64,000 nt of DNA, taken from the NCBI GenBank assembly GCA_030749725.1, contig JASMJM010000014.1:1-64000 (forward strand), in the 5' to 3' direction. The notes below the pieces were generated by a model. It made no database searches, had not been told where the DNA came from, and saw only the letters and a list, made by a program, of their open reading frames with translations. Numbering within the stretch: the first letter of the stretch is position 1; each line of letters begins with the position of its first letter. This document shows positions 4,702-55,226 of the stretch, piece after piece. This DNA comes from Pseudomonadales bacterium. Lineage in GTDB: Bacteria > Pseudomonadota > Gammaproteobacteria > Pseudomonadales > Azotimanducaceae. The translations under genes were made by a program, and so were the position numbers.

Positions 4702-4880
4702 TAGTGTACTGTCCCGCAAATACGTGGCCTTATTCGCTGGCCTATTTTGTCCCTGGACTTCGTTACTCGTCCTTATCGGGGCGCCCGGCGAGGGTGCCCA
4801 ACCCACGGCGTCCTCTCGCCTTGCCAGGAACAAAATATGCCGACCGAATAATGACCACCTAATTGCGGGACAGTACACTA
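4702..4880. mobile_element. MITE copy 1 (179 bp, terminal inverted repeats)
   Basis: The left end TAGTGTACTGTCCCGCAA is the reverse complement of the right end, and the pairing continues imperfectly for about 55 bases on each side (4702-4756 with 4824-4880). The interior is GC-rich (GGGCGCCCGGCGAGGGTGCCC) and has no transposase. CTAG borders both ends. Closely similar copies lie at 15220-15397 and 55035-55226. The transcript could fold into one long hairpin. The frames through it are chance ORFs. It belongs to no transposon family that I can name with certainty. Confidence 0.85.
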
Positions 4881-4908
4881 GCTGGTCAACACCACGGCAA
4901 TCTAACGA

Positions 4909-7118
4909 TGGTTAAGCGTGCGGCAGTCAGGGTCGCGATGGTTGCCGCAATCGTATTGGTGCTGATATGGCTGGCGTTGCCCTATCTGGCCACCCAACTG
5001 CTCACGAACCAGTTCGCCTCCACTGGCTGGTTGTTGCATCGGCTTTCGCTGCAGCGGCCAACCATTGCCCGCTGGCGATGGCCGCTGCTGCAGTTCTCAT
5101 CCGCCGACCAGCGAACGGATGTCACCGCATCGAATATGCTGCTGCAGACGGACCTGGCAGATAGCATCGGTCTGGAGCTTGAGGTGGAACAGCTCACAAT
5201 CACCCTCGGCGTGAGCGAGCAGCGACAGGTTCTCGATCCCGCTGCCTGGCTGTCTTCATTCCATCGTTACCTGCCATTAGCTCCCGCCAAGGGGCAGATC
5301 GATCGGCTGGAATTCTGTCCGCCTGGCGAGTGCTTTGTGTTTCAGTTGTCTTGGTTTCGTCAGAGCGATGGCTTGGTTGTCACAGCAACCATGGGTGAGT
5401 CCGGTATCGATCAGATCCACATCCTCATCGATGAGGACGAACTGCAACTCGACATAATTCACGCTGGCGCCCGCCCGTCTTTTGTCACGCTGCGGGCCGG
5501 ATTCGAGGATGACGAGTCGATACAGGTGCGCGGCGAGATGCTGCTGGTTCGCGATGCCTGGTTCGAGCGACTCCAGCGAGAGCTCGCGCTGCCGCCTGAT
5601 CTCGATCTCGACTGGCAGACGCTCAGCATTCGATATGCGGGTGATCTGTTGCTGGATCCCGTCGACACGGCCTCCATGCTGCTGCAGAATATTCGCGGCG
5701 AAGCCGATCTCGGCTGATCAGGCGGCTGGCGATGGCAGGGCGAGGCGTTCGCGGTGCACTCCGACTTAGCACATTCCGCTGCTCTATCGCTCTCTGCGGA
5801 CTCCTGGAAGATGGACCTGCATCCCGCTTATGAAGTAACGCTGCAGCTCGGGAAGTTGCCGCCGCTGGTCGTGACCACCCTGGACAAAATGCGGTGCCAA
5901 TACCACCCCACGGCGAATTCGCTCGGCTGCTCCGGTAAGGAGATTGCAATCAGCGGACCCATTGGCATAGAGGATCTGTCTGTGGAACTGCTCGTCGATC
6001 AGTTTGAACTGAAGCATTGGCTGAGTACCACGCCCTCGGCTACCATGCATGTCCAACTGAAACTTTTCGACCCCGAGCGACAGTGGGCCAGCGGCAGGGT
6101 GAAAATCGATGTGGCGGACGCTGAAGTTGTGGCGGTTGCGGAGGAGCTGGTTGTCGCTGAAGTCCCTCTGAACAGCTTACAACTCAACCATTCGACCGTT
6201 ACCCGGCAGGGTAAGCTGATAGCCGACTACCAGGGAGGGGTCGCCCCTTTGAATGAGTGGCTGCCCGCAGACTTCAGCGGCTCCGTCGATCTACAGTTGG
6301 AGGCGGGCTGGCAGGGGCCACTGCCGGATGATTGGCTGACATGGCCGCTCAGCACTGAGGTGAGCATAGGTGCCAGCGATCTCGCCGCCCAGGTTTCAGA
6401 TAACCAGTTCAGTGGCGGCGAGCTGCAACTGAAGTTGGCAGGTTGGCCTCGCCTCAGCAATGCCGGACCCGCCCACATGAGCTGGCGCAACATCGATATC
6501 GGTGTTCCCGTCACGGCGCTGGAGATGGACTTCAACATCCATGGCGACGCCGGCAGCCGGCAGATTGACCTCGAGGGGATCTCTCTCAGCGCCAACACCC
6601 TCGGCGGCAGCATCGCCAGCGACGACTTTCAGTTTAATCTGAACGAGGCAAGCGGCAGCCTGGTGGTCGAGCTGCAGCAGCTCGAGTTGCTGCAGATCCT
6701 CTCCCTGGAAGATGAAGAGTTTTACAGTGAAGGAAAACTAATCGGCAGAATTCCTGTCACAATAGAGCAGGGGAACGTAATTGTGGAAAATGGCACGGTG
6801 GCGACCGTGGCCCCGGGGGGGCTGTTGCAGTACAACCCCAGTGAATCGGTATTGAAACTGGCTGAGTCCAGTGATCAGATGGCCACGGTTCTCACGACCT
6901 TGAAGAACTTCCATTATGATTCTCTGGATGCGGAACTGAATTTTGGCGGCGATGGCATGTTGCGGATGGACACCGCCCTCAAAGGACATAATCCCGATTA
7001 CGAAGATGGTCGGGACATACACTTCAATCTGACCATCGAGGAAGATATCGTCGCACTACTGAAAAGCCTGCAATTGAGTGATCGGCTCACGGATCAGATC
7101 GAAAATCGGATGCGATAA
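4909..7118 (+). pseudogene. ydbH: ydbH-like intermembrane lipid-transport protein, interrupted by in-frame TGA
   Basis: One continuous frame from ATG 4909 (736 codons) is broken only by a TGA at 5715-5717, after about 268 codons. The N-terminus has a membrane anchor (VAMVAAIVLVLIWLALPYLA). The C-terminal 150 residues match the YdbH 'dicarboxylate transport' domain: a SEGKLIGRIPV stretch, then VAPGGLLQYNP and NFHYDSL. In E. coli, YdbH with YnbE bridges the inner and outer membranes and moves phospholipids, redundantly with TamB and YhdP. ynbE and ydbL follow directly. The downstream part could only be made by readthrough or by starting again at a GTG (5754). E. coli YdbH is longer, about 880 residues. 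Confidence 0.75.
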
Positions 7119-7132
7119 GCGGAGGGAATTCC

Positions 7133-7333
7133 ATGGTGAAACTCATACGACGCTGCACGGTTGGCGTGTGGCTGCTGGCCATATCGGTCGTGTCCTGTAC
7201 GCCCACCATACAGGTCGCGCCACCTTCCGAGCCCATCACCATCAATCTGAACATAAAGATTGAACATGAGATCAAGATCAAGGTAGACAAGGAACTGGAT
7301 GACCTGTTCGAGTCTGAAAGTGATATTTTTTAG
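7133..7333 (+). CDS. ynbE: YnbE-family lipoprotein
   Basis: A 66-residue lipoprotein. The hydrophobic signal ends in a lipobox (SVVSC, Cys about residue 22), and the mature part is the short YnbE domain, rich in alternating residues (ITINLNIKIEHEIKIKV) that form a beta strand. In E. coli, YnbE is an outer-membrane lipoprotein that extends the YdbH beta-groove toward the outer membrane. GGAGGG precedes the ATG. It sits 14 bases after ydbH and just before ydbL, the standard order, so the operon is conserved although ydbH is interrupted. Confidence 0.85.
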   Translation: MVKLIRRCTVGVWLLAISVVSCTPTIQVAPPSEPITINLNIKIEHEIKIKVDKELDDLFESESDIF

Positions 7334-7341
7334 GAGGCAGC

Positions 7342-7635
7342 ATGCCAGTACCGGGTAAATTCAAGATGATCCGTTTGACCACCATGCTGGTTCTGTTGGT
7401 TGTTGCAGCGGATGGCTGGGCCAGCCCCTTATCAGATGCCAAAGCAGCGGGACTGGTGCTGGAATCAGCCGACGGATTCGTCGTCAGTGCAAAGAGTGCC
7501 CCAGTGAAGATCCAGAAGCTGGTTGCGGATATCAACAAGCGTCGACATGAAGCCTACAAAAAGATCGCTGACAAGAACGGTATCAGCGTCGAGCAAGTTG
7601 GCCGTGAATCCTATGTCAGACGACAAAAGAAGTAG
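7342..7635 (+). CDS. ydbL: YdbL-family (DUF1318) periplasmic protein
   Basis: A 97-residue exported protein. The signal peptide ends near GWAS (about residue 28), then come the DUF1318 features SPLSDAKAAGLVLE and INKRRHEAYKKIA, and GISVEQVG near the end. Family knowledge from E. coli suggests that YdbL keeps YnbE from forming aberrant multimers. A strong AGGAGG overlaps the ynbE stop codon, so the two are translationally close. It is the last gene of the operon; the next gene is convergent. Confidence 0.87.
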   Translation: MPVPGKFKMIRLTTMLVLLVVAADGWASPLSDAKAAGLVLESADGFVVSAKSAPVKIQKLVADINKRRHEAYKKIADKNGISVEQVGRESYVRRQKK

Positions 7636-7646
7636 CACTGCTCACT

Positions 7647-8057
7647 TCATTCTGACGAGCGAGCTCTGTCTGACTTAATCACCTCGTCCAGCAGGAACAG
7701 ATCTGTCAGCAACGCGCGCAGGTGAATCGATCCATTCAGATTATCGATCAGTTGCGAGCTGATCCGGCTTTGTGCCAGCACCAGTCCGATTGCGGCGTGT
7801 GCCTTGCTGCCATCTTCAGCCAACACCTTGAGAAAGTCCAAGCCGTGATCATCTTGGTCGGTATCGCCGCTGAAACTTTTGGCGGCCACTTCGACCAGTG
7901 TTTCCAGAGCGTCATGGAAGTTTTGCAGGAACTGGACAACTTCCGAGTTTTCCTCGTCCCCCTCCCTGCCCTGGGCAGCATAAGCCAACATAAACTCGTA
8001 GGCTTCCTCGATGCTGTCGATTCGCTCTGCCAAATCAGATTGAAAACTGTCGTTCAT
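7647..8057 (-). CDS. Small acidic helical protein, last gene of the Mo-hydroxylase operon
   Basis: A 136-residue acidic, probably all-helical protein without signal peptide, membrane segment or cysteine motif. I do not recognise a family. Its ATG overlaps the TGA of the cytochrome b gene (ATGA), which implies translational coupling. By position it may be an assembly or maturation factor for the exported molybdenum hydroxylase, as small helical chaperones serve other Tat-exported molybdoenzymes. That is inference from context only. Confidence 0.6.
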   Translation of the reverse strand: MNDSFQSDLAERIDSIEEAYEFMLAYAAQGREGDEENSEVVQFLQNFHDALETLVEVAAKSFSGDTDQDDHGLDFLKVLAEDGSKAHAAIGLVLAQSRISSQLIDNLNGSIHLRALLTDLFLLDEVIKSDRARSSE

Positions 8058-8731
8058 GTACCTGTCTCGTTGCCGGCGTTCGATTCATCGGGACGCCAAA
8101 GAGCCGGATCATGGTGTCCACTATACTCGTCTGCGCTGATCCAACCCAGGATCATGGAGCGGGTATAGAACAGCTTTTCCGGCCGAAATGCAAAATAGAT
8201 ATGCATCATGATCAGGCTGATGGAGAAAAGTGCCGATAATCCGTGCAGTACGTAGATGTATCCCCACACTTCCTGGGAGAGCAGATAGGGATTCCGCTGC
8301 CACAGGGGGGAATCGATCTTAACAAGCATGATCAAGCCCGTGCCGATTCCAAGCAGCACCACCAATAACATGGCCAGGTGGTAGAGTTTCTGGGGGGTCG
8401 AGTACTTGCCCGGTAGCGCGATCGGATTGGACGAGCCGGTTAGCTCGTCCTGCAGTGTCTTTGCTTGCCGACTGATCTCAGCCCAGCCGAGCCACATGTA
8501 CTTGATGCGTCTGTGCCAGATGACCCGGATAACATGCAGGAGCACGCCCGCGGTGAGCAGGATGCCGGTAACCCAATGGATCAGCACCCACTGGAACTTG
8601 ATTTCCAGGACGGGAAGCAGGCTGGTGGCTAACAAGATCAGCATGCAGCTTGACAGCAGCCAGTGCTGGAACCTATCCACCGGCGTGTGTCGTTGCAGGC
8701 GCATCGTGCCCGTCTTTGGTGCTGCCGTCAC
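8054..8731 (-). CDS. Membrane-bound b-type cytochrome (FdnI/cytochrome b561-like)
   Basis: A 225-residue protein with four predicted membrane segments and histidines placed for b-type haem: RFQHW near the start of helix 1, LIHWVTG and LLHVIRV in helix 2, YHLAM in helix 3, and YVLHG with MMHIYF in helix 4. This is the pattern of formate dehydrogenase gamma and related cytochromes. I chose the GTG at 8731 because it overlaps the TGA of the upstream gene (GTGA). It should pass electrons between the periplasmic molybdenum hydroxylase and the quinone pool. Confidence 0.8.
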   Translation of the reverse strand: MTAAPKTGTMRLQRHTPVDRFQHWLLSSCMLILLATSLLPVLEIKFQWVLIHWVTGILLTAGVLLHVIRVIWHRRIKYMWLGWAEISRQAKTLQDELTGSSNPIALPGKYSTPQKLYHLAMLLVVLLGIGTGLIMLVKIDSPLWQRNPYLLSQEVWGYIYVLHGLSALFSISLIMMHIYFAFRPEKLFYTRSMILGWISADEYSGHHDPALWRPDESNAGNETGT

Positions 8732-8919
8732 TTGGGATCTGTCTGCTGTGGTCCGTTGGGGCGCCAGCCGCCGGTGTGCCGTACGATGCGCAGGTAGATC
8801 AGATGCAGACAGATAAACGCCAGGCCGGCACCGAAGAACACCCACAGCAGATCCCAGGATACCCCTTCCAGAACCCGCTGACCCCAGGGATTGGTGCTGT
8901 ATCGAAAGAGGAGGTCCAA
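8728..8919 (-). CDS. Small single-span membrane protein of the Mo-hydroxylase operon
   Basis: A 63-residue protein with one membrane helix (about residues 24-45, LLWVFFGAGLAFICLHLIYL) and a basic/polar tail. The only usable start is a TTG six bases after the stop codon of the FAD subunit gene, and the ribosome binding site is weak, so translation probably depends on the upstream gene. It overlaps the next gene by GTGA. It may be an accessory subunit of the cytochrome b. No family recognised. Confidence 0.55.
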   Translation of the reverse strand: MDLLFRYSTNPWGQRVLEGVSWDLLWVFFGAGLAFICLHLIYLRIVRHTGGWRPNGPQQTDPK

Positions 8920-8925
8920 ATTCCC

Positions 8926-9915
8926 TTACGCCTCGCGAATCGCTCTTTTCACAAGGTTTTCCATTAGTGGAATCTTGAAGTGATTCTGGTTGAGGGGGAC
9001 TGCTCCCCTGCTGGCCGAACCGGCCGCTAGATTGGCAATCTCTTCATCCCGCTTATTGCCGCGAACCACATCCTCCACCACCGTGAGTCGGCGGGGTACA
9101 CACTCGACGCCACCACAGGCGATGCGTAGATCTTCGATGACGCCGCCTTTGATCTTCAGAGCTGCCGCAACATTCACCAGGGCAAAATCCCAGGTATTAC
9201 GATCGGCAACCTTTTCAAAGTAGAAGTTCGCCCCAGCCCAACTGCCCGGAATGCGAACCGAGGTGAGAATATCCCCTTCCTTTAGCACGGTCATCTTGAG
9301 GATATCGATATCGGGACCGATGAAAAAATCCTCTGCCTTGATCATCTCTACGCCACCGCCGTTAACCACTACCATTTGCGCATCGAGAGCGATCAGAGCG
9401 GGGGCGGTATCAGACGGTGACACGGCAACGCAGCGATCTGCGTTGAACAGACAGTGCTCCCGGTTCATTGCCTCCGGGGTGTCGGCATAGCAGGTGTTAC
9501 CGCCGGCCCGGTAGCAGTCCATTCCCGCCCGGTAATACCAGCAGCGGGTGTCCTGGCAGACATTGCCGCCGATGGTTCCCGAGTTTCGGATCTGCGGGCT
9601 GGCCACCTTACCGGCAGCAGCTGCCAGCAGATTGTATTGCTTCTGGATCACGGGATGGTTGGCGATCTCTGTCAGGGACGTGAGGGCCCCCACCTCGATA
9701 CCATCTCCCTTCTCCCGCACCCCTTTCATTTCAGCGACGCCATTTAGATCGATCACTGCCTTGGGTTGTTTGATCCTGTCCTTGAACCAGTCGAGGCTGT
9801 CGTTGCCGCCTGCGAGCATCCACCCATCCTCGCCAAAGCGCTTCGCCAGATCAAGTGCATTGCCAAGGTCGGCTGGCTGGTATAGCTCGAATGCGGTCAT
9901 CATATCTTTAGCCAT
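8926..9915 (-). CDS. FAD-binding subunit of xanthine dehydrogenase-family molybdenum hydroxylase, with cysteine-rich insertion
   Basis: A 329-residue subunit M (CoxM/HcrB-like). FAD-binding features are AGGNDSL near residue 35 and NSGTIGGN near residues 111-118. A cysteine-rich loop follows, with Cys at about 120, 125, 134, 142, 155 and 162. In 4-hydroxybenzoyl-CoA reductase an insertion at this place binds an extra 4Fe-4S cluster, so such a cluster is likely here. A strong AAGGAGG precedes the ATG. It lies 12 bases after the large-subunit gene. The subunit lacks its own signal peptide and would travel with the small subunit. Confidence 0.85.
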   Translation of the reverse strand: MAKDMMTAFELYQPADLGNALDLAKRFGEDGWMLAGGNDSLDWFKDRIKQPKAVIDLNGVAEMKGVREKGDGIEVGALTSLTEIANHPVIQKQYNLLAAAAGKVASPQIRNSGTIGGNVCQDTRCWYYRAGMDCYRAGGNTCYADTPEAMNREHCLFNADRCVAVSPSDTAPALIALDAQMVVVNGGGVEMIKAEDFFIGPDIDILKMTVLKEGDILTSVRIPGSWAGANFYFEKVADRNTWDFALVNVAAALKIKGGVIEDLRIACGGVECVPRRLTVVEDVVRGNKRDEEIANLAAGSASRGAVPLNQNHFKIPLMENLVKRAIREA

Positions 9916-9927
9916 TTTATCGCCTCC

Positions 9928-12327
9928 TTAGAATGTGTTGACCTGGAGTGGTTTATGGGATTGAGGCCTGCCGCTGGCTACGTTTAGGATCATATCGGTC
10001 GTCACCGGCGTCCGATTGAAGTAGTGGCCGCCTAAGGCATCGGATATGGCGCTGAGAAGAGCCGCCGCCGCACAACCCTGAACCGGCTCACCGATCCCCT
10101 TCGCGCCCATGGGGCTATATGGATCGGGCTTGTCGACAGTCATTGCGGTCATGTGGGAAGGGACATCCAGGTAGCTGGGTGGTTTGTGCTGGTGCAGCGC
10201 CACATTGGCGGGCAGGCCGATTTGTGGATCATATACATGTCGCTCCAGGGCGGCCATGCCGATCCCCATGACGGCCGCTCCCTTGATCTGATTGCTCGCA
10301 CCAAGGGGATGCATCACCGTGCCACAGTCCGCCACACCGACGTAATCGAGGATCTCGTACTTACCCGTCTCCAGATCGAGTTCGATCTGCATAAAGCCGA
10401 CCGTCAGTGCGGGGGGATCGCCGTCCCGCTCCAGGGTGTCTTTGGCAACGCCGATCAGACCGCTTCCGGCCAGACCGGCAACGGAACGTTTGGTCATGCC
10501 GTTGATATTATTGGGTGCTTCGTGGCCGTCGAATTTACCGCCCAGTTCAATCGCCCGCTGCGCCGCTGCTGCATAGGTCAACTGCTTGCTCTTGTCTTTC
10601 TTGTGGACCACCTTCTCTGCGGCGATCTCGTAGTCATCCGCCTTGCCGCCCAGATCCATAGCAGCGATCTCCAGCAACTTGCTGACGGCGTCCATGGCGG
10701 CAACGTAGTTGGTGCGACTGTGGGTAAAGGTGGTCAGACTGCCGAACTGACCCAGATTCCAGGGCAGGTGTTTGCGGCTGTCACCCATTTCTACGATGCA
10801 GTGCTCCCAGTCGCATTTCAGGACCTCCGCCGCTACTCTGGCGGTGGAGCTGTGGGAGTAGGTGCCAAGATTACCGACACCCGTGTGTATGTGCAGCGTA
10901 CCGTCCGGTGTCAGGCGCACCAGCCCGTCGAAGCCGCTGGCACCGGAAGTGTGGTGCGCCTGACCGATGCCGATACCGACCACTTTCGAGCCGTCGCGTT
11001 TGCCGCTCTGCTTTATCTTCTGCGCCCAGTCAAATTCAGCGGCACCCTTGGCAACCGCTTCGTTCAGGTAGGAGCTGCTGGCGGTCGTTTGCTGCCTGCC
11101 ATACTTGTGGCCTGTGTCGGGGTCGTTCATACGCCGTATAGCCACCCGGTCGATTCCCAGCTGCTGGGCTGCTTTATCGATAACAGGTGCCATCACCATG
11201 GCGATCTGGTTGTTGCCGGGTCCACGCTGTGCTCCGCGCGGTGGCGTGTTGGTGCCTATGCCGAGGCCGCGAAAGCGCATCGATTCAGGGGTATAGACCA
11301 GAGACAGGGAATCGGCCGCGGCCATCATGTCGCCGCCACCGGAATAAGGGCCGTTTTCCTGCAGGATAAAAAGGTCCACCGCGGTAATCAGGCCATCTGC
11401 CGTGAATCCGATCTTGATGCGCCCCTGAAAACCGGGTCGAGCGGAACCGATACAATACTCTTCGGTACGATTGATGCGCATCATCACAGGCCGGCCGGTC
11501 TTCTTGGCCATATGGGCTGGCACCGCCATGATCGGATAGGCTGCTCCTTTGGAGCCGAAGCCGCCGCCGCAGTATTCGGAGATGAATACCAGATCTTCCG
11601 GTTTGACACCGACATATCTGGCTACGTAGGGGTGCGCAAAGCTTTGGCTCTGACAGGAACCATGCATGTAGCACTTACCGTTCTGCCAGTAGGCCATGGC
11701 GGATCTGGATTCCATACAGAGATGCGAAAGGCTGGCAGTGACGAAGCTTTCGTCCAGGATCAACTTAGCATTCTTGAATCCAGCTTCGATATCGCCGTAG
11801 TCCCAGTCCACGGCATGCTGTCCCATGGGCAGTTTGTCTTCGCCTGCAGCGGCAAAGTCCCGGGCAGTCCACTTGACGTCCTTGACGCCTCCCCCGCCGA
11901 CGGAATTACCGTCGGAGCGGGCGTTCGGTCCCCCCGGGTAAAGGCTTTGCAGCGGGTCCACTGTGTAGGGCAGGGGTTCGTATTCCACTTTGATGGCATC
12001 CCGTGCATCAGCCGCCAGGGTCTCAGTCTCCGCCGCTATGGCGAGAATTGGATCACCGACGAACAGCGGCTCCGTCGTGAAAACCGGCTGGCCTGGAGCA
12101 GGAGGTGGAGGTACGTCCTCGGCAGTGAGTATCGCCACCACTCCCGGCATCTTCAGCGCCTCACCGGCGTCGATGTTGACTACGCGAGCGTGCGGCATGG
12201 GGCTCATCAGCAGCTTGCAGAACAGCATCCCCTCTGCGCGGAAGTCTTCCGCATACTTCGCTTTGCCGGTCACCTTGCCGAGTATGTCCGCTGGCGTGAA
12301 GTTCTTGCCGATCAATTTGTAACTCAT
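9928..12327 (-). CDS. Molybdopterin-binding large subunit of xanthine dehydrogenase-family enzyme
   Basis: A 799-residue catalytic subunit (CoxL/XdhB/HcrA family). The N-terminal domain begins with ILGKVTGKAKYAEDF. Molybdopterin loops include CGGGFGSKG and RGAQRGPGNNQ, and the C-terminal GAKGIGEP carries the catalytic glutamate. The enzyme would hydroxylate, or reductively dehydroxylate, an aldehyde, N-heterocycle or aromatic acyl compound; the substrate cannot be told from sequence. The ATG overlaps the stop codon of the small-subunit gene (ATGA). No signal peptide. A 738-codon antisense frame opposite this gene is a shadow. Confidence 0.9.
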   Translation of the reverse strand: MSYKLIGKNFTPADILGKVTGKAKYAEDFRAEGMLFCKLLMSPMPHARVVNIDAGEALKMPGVVAILTAEDVPPPPAPGQPVFTTEPLFVGDPILAIAAETETLAADARDAIKVEYEPLPYTVDPLQSLYPGGPNARSDGNSVGGGGVKDVKWTARDFAAAGEDKLPMGQHAVDWDYGDIEAGFKNAKLILDESFVTASLSHLCMESRSAMAYWQNGKCYMHGSCQSQSFAHPYVARYVGVKPEDLVFISEYCGGGFGSKGAAYPIMAVPAHMAKKTGRPVMMRINRTEEYCIGSARPGFQGRIKIGFTADGLITAVDLFILQENGPYSGGGDMMAAADSLSLVYTPESMRFRGLGIGTNTPPRGAQRGPGNNQIAMVMAPVIDKAAQQLGIDRVAIRRMNDPDTGHKYGRQQTTASSSYLNEAVAKGAAEFDWAQKIKQSGKRDGSKVVGIGIGQAHHTSGASGFDGLVRLTPDGTLHIHTGVGNLGTYSHSSTARVAAEVLKCDWEHCIVEMGDSRKHLPWNLGQFGSLTTFTHSRTNYVAAMDAVSKLLEIAAMDLGGKADDYEIAAEKVVHKKDKSKQLTYAAAAQRAIELGGKFDGHEAPNNINGMTKRSVAGLAGSGLIGVAKDTLERDGDPPALTVGFMQIELDLETGKYEILDYVGVADCGTVMHPLGASNQIKGAAVMGIGMAALERHVYDPQIGLPANVALHQHKPPSYLDVPSHMTAMTVDKPDPYSPMGAKGIGEPVQGCAAAALLSAISDALGGHYFNRTPVTTDMILNVASGRPQSHKPLQVNTF

Positions 12328-12992
12328 GTCAATCCCCCCTCGGCGGCACGCATCACCGAATTAAGATAGTGGTCATAGGCGCCGCATCTGCACAGATTGC
12401 CCGACAGGGCCAGTCGCGCTTCCTCTCTGCTGGGCTTCGGATTGGCCTTCAGCAAGGCAACGGCCGACATGATCTGCCCCGGCGTACAGAAACCGCACTG
12501 CGGCCCAAGTTCGTCTACAAAGGCCTGCTGCACCGGATGCAGATCACCGTTGGCTGCCTGTAACCCCTCGATGGTGGTGATCTTGCGTCCCCTCATCGTA
12601 TGGGTCAGGGTGGAACAGGAGTAGTTGGCGACGTCGTCGATCAACACGGTGCAGGCACCGCATTCACCACGGTCACAGCCAAACTTGGTACCGGTCAAAC
12701 CGAGCTTGTAGCGCAGCGTCATGGCCAGTGTTTCCTGAGGCAATACATCCACTCTGCGCACGGTACCGTTGATATTGAGGGAGATCAGACGCTCCACGGT
12801 TCCGGCAGCGGCGCTCTGGGCGTAACTGCTCATGGCAGGTAGCATTGAGCCTGCCGAGACGGTTGCCCCTGCGGCAATGATCCCCTTTATAAAATTCCGT
12901 CTGCTGGTGCCGGTGCGACCAAGATCAGCCAGAACGCTGCTGCTGTCCTGCGGGTCATATATGGTCACGGCTCCGGGGTCTTTGTTGGACAT
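12324..12992 (-). CDS. 2Fe-2S small subunit of molybdenum hydroxylase with Tat signal
   Basis: A 222-residue protein with two parts. Residues 1 to about 58 are an N-terminal extension with a twin-arginine motif (SRRNFIKG, Arg31-Arg32), a hydrophobic stretch and SYAQSAA, a Tat signal for folded export. The rest is the standard two-cluster 2Fe-2S subunit: CDRGECGAC plus a later Cys for the first cluster, and CGFCTPG with CRCG for the second. I chose ATG 12992 behind GAGGAG. It is the first gene of the operon and should carry the other subunits to the periplasm. Confidence 0.88.
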   Translation of the reverse strand: MSNKDPGAVTIYDPQDSSSVLADLGRTGTSRRNFIKGIIAAGATVSAGSMLPAMSSYAQSAAAGTVERLISLNINGTVRRVDVLPQETLAMTLRYKLGLTGTKFGCDRGECGACTVLIDDVANYSCSTLTHTMRGRKITTIEGLQAANGDLHPVQQAFVDELGPQCGFCTPGQIMSAVALLKANPKPSREEARLALSGNLCRCGAYDHYLNSVMRAAEGGLT

Positions 12993-13173: not shown

Positions 13174-14574
13174 ATGAGCGATCGATCGCAGCCTACAGGC
13201 GGTGGCAGATCCCCGGCTACCGGCTTTACCGAAGGGTCCGTGACCAGGCACCTGTTGAATCTGACGGGTTTCATGGTGATGGGGTTTCTGGCCATGAATA
13301 TCGCCCGGCTGGCCGAAGCTGCCTTCGTCGGGCTGCTCGGCACGGCGGAATTGGCTGCCATCGCTTACAACTTCCCCATTGTCATGGGATTAGGTGCGGC
13401 ATCCCGCGGTCTCGGCATCGGCGCGTCCTCGGTGGTGGCCCGCTCGATGGGCAGTGGCGATCGCGAGGGTTCTGCTGTGCTGGTTACCCACTGCCTTTGG
13501 CTGACCCTGACTTTCACCCTCATCTGTGTCGCTCTCGGCATCCCCTTTGCAGAACCGCTGTTCCGAGTGCTGGGTGCGCGCGATGAGGTACTGCTATTGA
13601 CGCTCGATTACTTCAACGTGTGGATTCTCGGGTTACCCATGTTTGCCCTCTCCATGGTGGGTACCAGCCTGCTGCGTGCCACCGGTGACGCCAAATCACC
13701 GGGATTTATATAGACCCTCGGATCCATACTGCAGATCGTGTTTGCACCACCGCTGATCTTCGGTTGGTTCGGCATCCCACCCCTCGGTGTTGTGGGGGCA
13801 GCCTTGTCTCACGTGCTGGCCCGCGTGATCAGTTTCGGCTTTACCATGTACCTGTTCGCCTTCCGTGATCGTCTCATCGTGCCAACCTTTGACGGTCTGC
13901 TGCCGGCATGGCGCAGCATTCTGCACGTGGGACTGCCGGCCACCATGACCAACCTGATCGGTCCGGTATCCAATGCGATCATCATCCGTCTACTGTCGAG
14001 CCATGGTGCCGCGGTGGTGGCCGGCTTCGGCATCGCCCAGCGAGTCGATTCCATCGTAGCGATGGTTGTCATATCCCTCGGTGGTGCCGCCGCCCCCTTT
14101 ATCGGTCAGAATTGGGGAGCCGGCCACTACGACCGGGTGCGAGAATCGCTGCGACTCGCCAATCGGTTCAGTCTGGCATGGGGAGTGTTCGCCGCCATTT
14201 TGATGGCAGCAATCGGTGGTCCATTGGTGAGTCTGATCAACGACGACGCTCAAGTGATCGAAACCGCCACGGTGTTCTTTCTCATCGTGCCGTTCAGTAT
14301 CGGATTCATGGGTCTCAACAATGTGGCCAGTGCCAGCTTTAACGCGTTGGGTCAGCCGATGCCGCCCCTGGTGCTCGCGCTCAGTCGCATGATCGTACTC
14401 TACGTTCCACTGGCGATCCTGGGCGACTATTTGTACGGTTATGCCGGCATCTTCGGCGCCACTGCGCTTGCCAACGTCATCAACGGACTGGCTGCCGCTT
14501 ACTGGAACCGAGTTTCCATCGACAACTCCGTGCAACGACTGCAGGCGGCTTCGGCGTCAGTGAACGGTTCCTGA
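13174..14574 (+). pseudogene. MATE-family efflux transporter, interrupted by in-frame TAG
   Basis: One frame of 467 codons encodes a full MATE transporter, but a TAG at 13711-13713 stops it after 179 codons. The protein continues in the same frame (TLGSILQIVFAPPLIFGWFG). The intact paralogue at 52584-53960 aligns across the site, where the stop replaces a proline in GLIPAIGASLQ. Both halves have normal family features, such as PFIGQNWGAG in the second half. MATE proteins export drugs or metabolites using Na+ or H+. Either the gene is recently dead or the base is a consensus error. The TGA-interrupted ydbH gene is a parallel case. Confidence 0.8.
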
Positions 14575-15219: not shown

Positions 15220-15397
15220 TAGTGTACTGTCCCACAATTACTTGGCCTTATTCGCTGGCCTATTTTGTCCCTGGACTTCGACTGGGCGTCCCCGTTGTTC
15301 GTCCTGATGGGTGCCCAACCCACAGCGTCCTCGCGCCTTGCCAGGAACAAAATATGCCGACCGAATAATGACCACCTAATTGCGGGACAGTACCCTA
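15220..15397. mobile_element. MITE copy 2 (178 bp)
   Basis: The same element as at 4702, with ends TAGTGTACTGTCCCAC and GCGGGACAGTACCCTA (one mismatch between the termini). The interior is a shorter variant that keeps GGGTGCCCAACCCACAGCGTCC. Its left end abuts the 5' region of the DsbA-like gene. Its right end overlaps the last codon of the next gene: the terminal CTA, read on the minus strand, is that gene's TAG stop codon. Confidence 0.83.
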
Positions 15398-15958
15398 GGG
15401 CAACTCGGGAAATGGGTCTTGCATGGCATCACTCACCGGGATTTCGAAGGTATTCAGGGTCAGTGAGACGATGCAGTAATAGCCGATCACGGTCACCAGC
15501 TCGATCATGCCGCTTTCGCCCCACAGTTCCACGCCCTGACGATAGGTGTCGTCATCGAGACGGTGTTGGTTGAGCAACTGACTGGCCATCCGGTGGCTTA
15601 GCTGGTGTTCATCGGTGGCGAAATCTGGCGGCTCTCCCTTCTGAATCGCCTCGGTCACCTCGGCCGATATGCCCGCACGCTGCGCCAGGTTTTTGTGTGC
15701 GGCCAACTCGAACTTGGCCTTGAAGTGGGCGCCAACGGTACAGATGGCGATCTCCTTGGTAGCTTCATCGAGGGATGTGGCAAAACGGGCAGCAGCGCCC
15801 AACTGCTGAATGGCGTTGCCGACGGCAGGCGCTCGCACCCAGACACCGAACGGGCCGGCGAGGCCCATGGCACCCCTCGGCCCGCTCTGAATGGCATCGT
15901 AGATAACACGTTGCTCGGCCGAAAGGTCATCGACTTCCAATAGGGATAGACGGCTCAT
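15395..15958 (-). CDS. Carboxymuconolactone decarboxylase/AhpD-family protein
   Basis: A 187-residue AhpD-fold protein with the family helix pattern (RFATSLDEATKEIAI, then AKFELAAHKNLAQRAG). The usual CxxC is not present; the AH in FELAAHKNLA keeps the histidine position, as in carboxymuconolactone decarboxylase-like members. A peroxidase-type redox role is therefore doubtful. I chose the ATG at 15958, where conservation begins. The TAG stop codon is formed by the end of MITE copy 2, so the natural C-terminus may have been altered. It is 14 bases after the GST gene and probably cotranscribed. Confidence 0.75.
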   Translation of the reverse strand: MSRLSLLEVDDLSAEQRVIYDAIQSGPRGAMGLAGPFGVWVRAPAVGNAIQQLGAAARFATSLDEATKEIAICTVGAHFKAKFELAAHKNLAQRAGISAEVTEAIQKGEPPDFATDEHQLSHRMASQLLNQHRLDDDTYRQGVELWGESGMIELVTVIGYYCIVSLTLNTFEIPVSDAMQDPFPELP

Positions 15959-55034: not shown

Positions 55035-55226
55035 TAGTGTACTGTCCCACAATTAAGTAGCCTTATTCGCTGGCCTATTTTATCCCTGGACTTCGACTGG
55101 GCGTCCCCGTTGTTCGTCCTTATCGGGGCGCCCGGCGAGGGTGCCCAACCCACGGCGTCCTCGCGCCTTGCCAGGAACAAAATATGCCGACCGAACAATG
55201 ACCACTTAATTGCGGGACAGTACACT
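55035..55226. mobile_element. MITE copy 3 (192 bp)
   Basis: The longest copy. Left end TAGTGTACTGTCCCACAA, right end TTGCGGGACAGTACACT. The interior has an extra GACTGGGCGTCCCCGTTGTTC compared with copy 1, then the same GGCGCCCGGCGAGGGTGCCC core. It lies between two divergent genes and could affect either promoter. Confidence 0.85.

Follow-up and report, generated by a model that had tools for sequence, protein, structure and literature searches.

Background

HcrABC is a cytoplasmic, ferredoxin-driven enzyme whose HcrB subunit carries a [4Fe-4S] cluster. FdnGHI, the formate dehydrogenase-N of E. coli with FdnI as its cytochrome subunit, moves charge across the membrane. The MCD-dependent acetaldehyde dehydrogenase of acetic acid bacteria has a cytochrome c and no FAD subunit, and it reportedly reduces ubiquinone. 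In a published scheme this dehydrogenase is drawn with the respiratory chain (PMC9171043). Among the closest systems to the locus described here is E. coli PaoABC, which crosses the membrane as an assembled trimer, guided by the Tat signal of PaoA, with the signal on the 2Fe-2S subunit only (PMC4273604). Its terminal acceptor was not identified as of 2014 (PMC3958847).

An earlier note on this DNA, which we call the original prediction, held that xanthine dehydrogenase-family enzymes with a separate FAD subunit are mostly cytoplasmic and that export together with quinone-linked electron exchange through a cytochrome would be uncommon for the three-subunit form. That statement has to be qualified, since PaoABC, which it missed, is an exported three-subunit precedent (PMC4273604, PMC3958847). 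Export itself is thus not the new part. The components of the locus are of known kinds; what is new is a cytochrome module and a protein without known family, U, beside a probably exported hydroxylase.

The operon and its proposed function

The window (the whole stretch of DNA analysed, 64,000 nucleotides) holds six tightly packed genes, S-L-F-T-B-U, which run on the minus strand from 12992 to 7647. S (12324..12992, minus strand, ATG at 12992, 222 amino acids) is a small subunit with two [2Fe-2S] domains and an N-terminal Tat signal, L (9928..12327, minus, 799 amino acids) is the large molybdopterin subunit and F (8926..9915, minus, 329 amino acids) is the FAD subunit. They are followed by T (8728..8919, minus, TTG start, 63 amino acids), a one-helix membrane protein predicted to lie N-out/C-in, by B (8054..8731, minus, GTG start, 225 amino acids), a four-helix, FdnI-like b-type cytochrome, and by U (7647..8057, minus, 136 amino acids), an acidic all-helical protein. 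S and L overlap by ATGA, T and B by GTGA, and B and U again by ATGA; L and F are 12 bp apart, with an AAGGAGG site, and F and T are 6 bp apart, so that no spacing exceeds 12 bp. Hydropathy gives one transmembrane helix for T, four for B and none for U; T matched no Pfam family. All six reading frames, their Pfam domains and the junctions agree with the overlapping six-gene operon originally predicted at this position, and the component list, as judged by Pfam and hydropathy, holds in all points.

We consider it likely that the operon encodes a Tat-exported, PaoABC-like hydroxylase that docks on an FdnI-like cytochrome and reduces quinone. S, L and F would be assembled with their cofactors in the cytoplasm and co-exported by the Tat signal of S, after which L would hydroxylate its substrate at molybdenum in the periplasm. 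Electrons would pass from two [2Fe-2S] clusters to FAD, from there to a [4Fe-4S] cluster of F and on to T/B, the docking of F or S on T/B being the contact that we propose. T and B would form a five-helix module, the analogue of FdnI plus the FdnH anchor helix, whose two b hemes would carry electrons across the membrane, so that quinone would be reduced near the cytoplasmic face. U would be a cytoplasmic helper tied to the cytochrome, following B rather than S-L-F.

As to the surroundings of the operon, positions 4863-7635 hold a YdbH-like region in two frames, of which only the second matches the family, a small lipoprotein-like reading frame and a DUF1318 (YdbL) gene; the break in the YdbH-like frame may come from a misassembly or show that the gene is broken. 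At 13174-14574 a MATE transporter gene is split over two reading frames by a frame break. What looks like a MITE, a repeat of 180 bp whose ends are inverted (TAGTGTACTGTCCCGCAA...TTGCGGGACAGTACACTAG), occurs at 4702-4881, 15220-15398 and 55035-55226; across the genome 38 matches to it score 140 bits or more. Two of its copies flank a 10-kb stretch containing the operon.

Conservation of the locus and co-occurrence of its parts

With F as bait, a search of GTDB genome contigs yielded 130 relatives, and the best 80 loci were analysed further. By their record names they come from Gammaproteobacteria, Alphaproteobacteria, Gemmatimonadota, Acidobacteriota, Latescibacterota and others, all 80 being labelled as MAGs, for which bin names can be wrong. 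The six-gene set does recur in other genomes: 27 of these best 80 loci hold it in full, in several bacterial phyla, and some of the others are cut by contig ends. Among the 27 complete loci T and B form one frame in four, B and U are divergent in four and L precedes S in two; L020, L044, L046 and L050 have the divergent B-U pair with T still behind F. L019 (= L105) and L021 have S-F-T-B-U without L between, and L was not found beside them in the stretch of DNA covered.

B was found 34 times in the 80 loci, with F within 6 kb in 34/34 and T in 34/34; since F was the bait, the nearness of B to F is partly circular. Of the 33 U genes in these loci, 32 have B no more than 1.5 kb away; L030 closes with a second U-like stretch that lacks an adjoining B, at a point where the contig ends. 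A fairer test comes from 27 loci of one phylum retrieved with U as bait (L141-L167, about 1.5 kb on each side, from genomes that partly overlap the 20 regions described below). Here B is present in 26/27 and F in 24/27, and of the three loci without F (L148, L154 and L166) L148 and L166 are short. The conservation of the cytochrome genes beside the Mo-hydroxylase genes, on which the original prediction had staked its case, is therefore seen with either bait.

In 48 of the 80 loci no U stands beside S-L-F in the DNA covered, some of them being cut by contig ends. U was sought in 29 of these 48 genomes, a set that includes contig-end loci (e.g. L027 and L086) where U may sit on the next contig. 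It is present in 26, although G563, one of these, has no more than a short piece of it where a contig stops, and was not found in the other three, perhaps because of incompleteness; L049, also among the 29, has T-B with no U adjoining. In the regions around 20 of the 26 U genes, U adjoins B in 20/20 and F lies no further than 6 kb from B in 18/20, while the two regions without F near B (L117 and L133) lie at contig ends. We therefore rejected the idea that S-L-F sets without T-B-U neighbours use another partner, as U occurs elsewhere in most of the genomes searched, and beside B in every region inspected.

At the level of whole genomes, L (at E 1e-100) was found in 67 and U in 66 of 298 genomes of one phylum, that of G576, the genome of locus L075. 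Both are present in 65, only L in two (G851, G579), only U in one (G828) and neither in 230; Fisher's p of 3.4e-62 takes no account of shared ancestry, and since per genome at most three candidates were scored for L and at most 14 for U, misses are possible in both. In a sample of the window's own class, U is present in 2 of 369 genomes, the window's own and that of L019 (G522 and L019 are the same record and not independent). In a sample of its own order L is present in 8 of 194 genomes, its own included, and the other seven all have U. Four of these seven, from one genus, carry T-B/U as a separate two-gene unit unlinked from S-L-F (for G110, one of the four, the U-B adjacency comes from the U-bait loci only). 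This genus and the 48 loci without adjoining U make a stable one-to-one complex less certain. The window's own genome has Mo-hydroxylase domains at five other places, in short loci without T, B or U. In Gemmatimonadota (e.g. G576) 29 of the 67 L-bearing genomes have an L 60-69% identical to that of the window and another of about 44-52%. Among the loci inspected, the closer kind has no adjoining T-B-U, and the more distant one stands with a fused T-B and U.

The U protein

U contains 28 Asp and Glu residues against 10 Lys and Arg. It matched no family in Pfam (best E 0.17) or NCBIfam (best 0.069) and is possibly a new protein family. The structure model (pLDDT 89.8) is helical, and by this model U is describable as a helical bundle only. 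Assignments to known structures were tried and rejected: the best profile match in the PDB had E 0.043, to unrelated helical proteins, the best Foldseek match reached 0.02, and the helical bundles found by VIA, at Z up to 12.4, are unrelated proteins, such scores being common for bundles according to the tool's own warning.

On balance we lean towards U being a cytoplasmic assembly or proofreading factor tied to the cytochrome. Alternatively, and with a somewhat smaller though real chance, U is a permanent cytoplasmic subunit or a cap over the quinone site of the cytochrome, which would be compatible with the function proposed above. U keeps its place next to B in genomes that carry T-B/U apart from S-L-F, and its gene overlaps that of B in the window, as a subunit of the cytochrome would lead one to expect; the fold searches gave no evidence for either role. 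In favour of an assembly factor, many Tat substrates are known to have a proofreading chaperone of their own (PMC4273604).

The cytochrome module

B matches PF01292 (E 4.4e-14, 53.1 against a cut-off of 30.1) and falls below the cut-off of TIGR01583, the equivalog for the gamma subunit of formate dehydrogenase (40.4 against 115.85). Searched against the PDB, its profile finds FdnI (1kqf_C) at E 3.5e-10, with hydrogenase-1 cytochrome as a weak match (0.0057). Structure was modelled on the natural T-B fusion of L092, with a mean pLDDT of 77.9 and a poor T part (about 47-65). At E of 0.001 or better, Foldseek gave for this model 1kqf_C alone (E 9.4e-07, TM 0.70 by target length), and VIA aligned 196 residues of it with 1kqf_C (Z 16.7, rmsd 3.6). 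B thus combines a PF01292 score above the cut-off with the FdnI fold.

Five histidines in or beside helices (His23, 52, 66, 163 and 177) are each invariant in 31/31 B proteins, as are His15, 118 and 207; here and in the counts for S, L and F below, proteins shorter than 90% of the query were left out. In helix 2 and in helix 4 the histidines are 14 residues apart, which would suit two hemes, with these residues as putative ligands. B also has in common with FdnI a GKY-xxx-QK loop, which we take to border the quinone site of the latter.

Among the 34 B genes found in the 80 loci, four (L058, L092, L093 and L095) form a single frame with T. Of the 20 regions around U from genomes without U at the S-L-F locus, 18 have the fusion; it is also seen in two of the four B-holding regions among another six that were fetched (L105, among the four, repeats L019). 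As T is fused to B in relatives, T and B appear to be one five-helix module. T has more Lys and Arg after its helix than before it in 24 of 31 proteins, an equal number in seven and fewer in none (the four fused T were left out), which places the C-terminus of T and the N-terminus of B both in the cytoplasm and agrees with the fusion. A plasmid search with B gave no match, and in the window's own genome the B profile has a single further hit, a distant one (2.8e-12).

The original prediction proposed electron exchange with the quinone pool through the cytochrome, in either direction. The match of B to FdnI, the shared loop and the linkage of the genes support the exchange, and flow into the pool is favoured over flow out of it. 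It could be argued instead that the exported enzyme uses a soluble acceptor, the cytochrome being merely co-regulated with it and having another task such as superoxide oxidation. Indeed, the second VIA match of the model is E. coli superoxide oxidase (Z 13.2), so this fold has other uses; many S-L-F sets stand alone, and no cytochrome gene is annotated within the 9-kb region of paoABC. However, the structure fits FdnI better, L and U occur together in nearly every genome of the surveyed phylum that has either, and F stands beside U and B in most of the loci found with U as bait. In our opinion these observations make a soluble acceptor unlikely.

Cofactor sites, substrate and direction of electron flow

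S matches Fer2_2 (1.2e-30) and Fer2 (2.7e-06), and its Cys106, 111, 114, 126, 166, 169, 201 and 203 are each kept in at least 71 of the 72 aligned proteins. L belongs to the xanthine oxidase family: MoCoBD_1 (4.3e-57), MoCoBD_2 and Ald_Xan_dh_C all score above their cut-offs, and Glu747 aligns with the catalytic Glu692 of PaoC. PaoC Arg440, to which we ascribe an active-site role, aligns with His459 of L, which is kept in 70/71; hence the substrate may differ from that of PaoABC. It is possibly an aldehyde or an N-heterocycle. The gene neighbours gave no clue, being mixed among the matches listed for the relatives and likewise in the window.

F matches FAD_binding_5 (8.9e-46) and CO_deh_flav_C (3.8e-13). 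Alignment with PaoB and conservation point to a [4Fe-4S] loop, absent from the original description, at Cys125, 134, 142 and 162 of F (9430..9543, minus strand). Each of these is invariant in 81/81 F proteins, and they align with Cys119, 129, 138 and 157 of PaoB, presumably its [4Fe-4S] ligands. The cluster may therefore be the electron exit.

A reverse flow, in which the enzyme would be a quinol-driven reductase like a membrane-run 4-hydroxybenzoyl-CoA reductase, seems to us very unlikely. HcrABC models are among the closest NCBIfam matches, gamma and beta each being the best for its protein, and HcrB has a Cys-rich loop at the same place as F. Yet all the scores lie below the curated equivalog cut-offs (gamma 178.6 against 257.8, alpha 321.1 against 994.55, beta 183.5 against 404.55), and the cysteine pattern of F is that of PaoB rather than of HcrB. 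HcrB Cys146, which we assume to be a cluster ligand, aligns with a residue of F other than Cys. Moreover, such reductions demand a stronger donor than a quinol, and the periplasm is not where CoA esters would be expected. We keep to a hydroxylase that would reduce quinone.

Export

The Tat motif SRRNFIKG occupies residues 30-37 of S (12882..12905, minus strand) and is followed by a hydrophobic stretch and, as read by eye, a signal-peptidase-I-like SYA-QS site; no lipobox Cys follows the motif in the S of the window. Its Tat score is marginal, 18.7 against the Pfam cut-off of 22.7 and thus below it, and a tie at 16.7 with the NCBIfam cut-off. Among relatives, 73 S rows less six with truncated or misread frames leave 67 readable N-termini, and 66 of these keep a motif of the SRRxFI kind, in line with the Tat motif first read on the small subunit. 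A lipobox is found by pattern in 34 of the 67, with that of L019 as one more by eye. By hand count it is present in 24 of 26 S that have a separate T adjoining (L019 counted by eye, the window without, L039 masked), in 0 of 3 readable S with a fused T-B and in 11 of 37 rows without an adjoining B. TatC and one XdhC-type protein are encoded in the window's own genome.

S thus carries what looks like an export signal, and S-L-F is probably exported via Tat. That the motif is unused and the enzyme cytoplasmic, as the marginal scores in the window might suggest, is the least probable alternative, given the motif in 66 of 67 S and the lipobox in 34, the predicted N-out orientation of T and the experimental precedent of PaoA export (PMC4273604).

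Implications of the hypothesis

No description of an S-L-F-T-B-U operon was found in open-licence PMC titles and abstracts, a scope outside which many journals lie. Given its recurrence in several phyla, the locus looks like a real, little-described respiratory complex. We go further with no more than an even expectation: this would be a new proton-motive respiratory complex, with a xanthine oxidase-family enzyme outside, a [4Fe-4S] exit, quinone reduced inside via a two-heme FdnI-like cytochrome, a module that several hydroxylases of one genome may share, and a new assembly protein, U. If true, its turnover would displace charge across the membrane in the manner of FdnGHI, and the extra [4Fe-4S] cluster would gain a role. 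It would join molybdenum hydroxylases with redox loops of the formate dehydrogenase type, in bacteria represented here by MAGs. Since the operon itself codes for the probable acceptor, the question of the acceptor becomes testable.

Comparison with known systems

HcrABC has S, F and L as relatives and, in its FAD subunit, a Cys-rich loop. The MCD-dependent acetaldehyde dehydrogenase is likewise a membrane-binding molybdenum hydroxylase, and 8gy3 chains are among the PDB matches of L and S; the present locus differs from it in its b cytochrome and in having an FAD subunit for which a [4Fe-4S] site is predicted.

With PaoABC the locus shares three subunits, the Tat signal on the 2Fe-2S subunit (with marginal scores in the window), four aligned cysteines of the PaoB type in the FAD subunit and an aligned catalytic Glu. 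Identity is 41.0% for S, 31.9% for F and 28.3% for L, and the NCBIfam models of PaoA (152.1 against 322) and PaoC (263.4 against 1180) score below their cut-offs. The E. coli genes differ in their order: they run S-F-L and close with that for the Moco chaperone PaoD, and the annotation shows no cytochrome gene nearby. None of the six proteins here matches a PaoD-type (XdhC) protein, and the one PF02625 match of the window's own genome lies on another contig.

The catalytic part of the FdnI system belongs to a different family of Mo-enzymes, and B differs from FdnI in its five invariant histidines in or beside helices and in that T can be fused to it. T, as a separate helix, resembles the anchor helix of FdnH, and B shares with FdnI (1kqf_C) a four-helix b cytochrome, the GKY-xxx-QK loop and, at TM 0.70, the fold.
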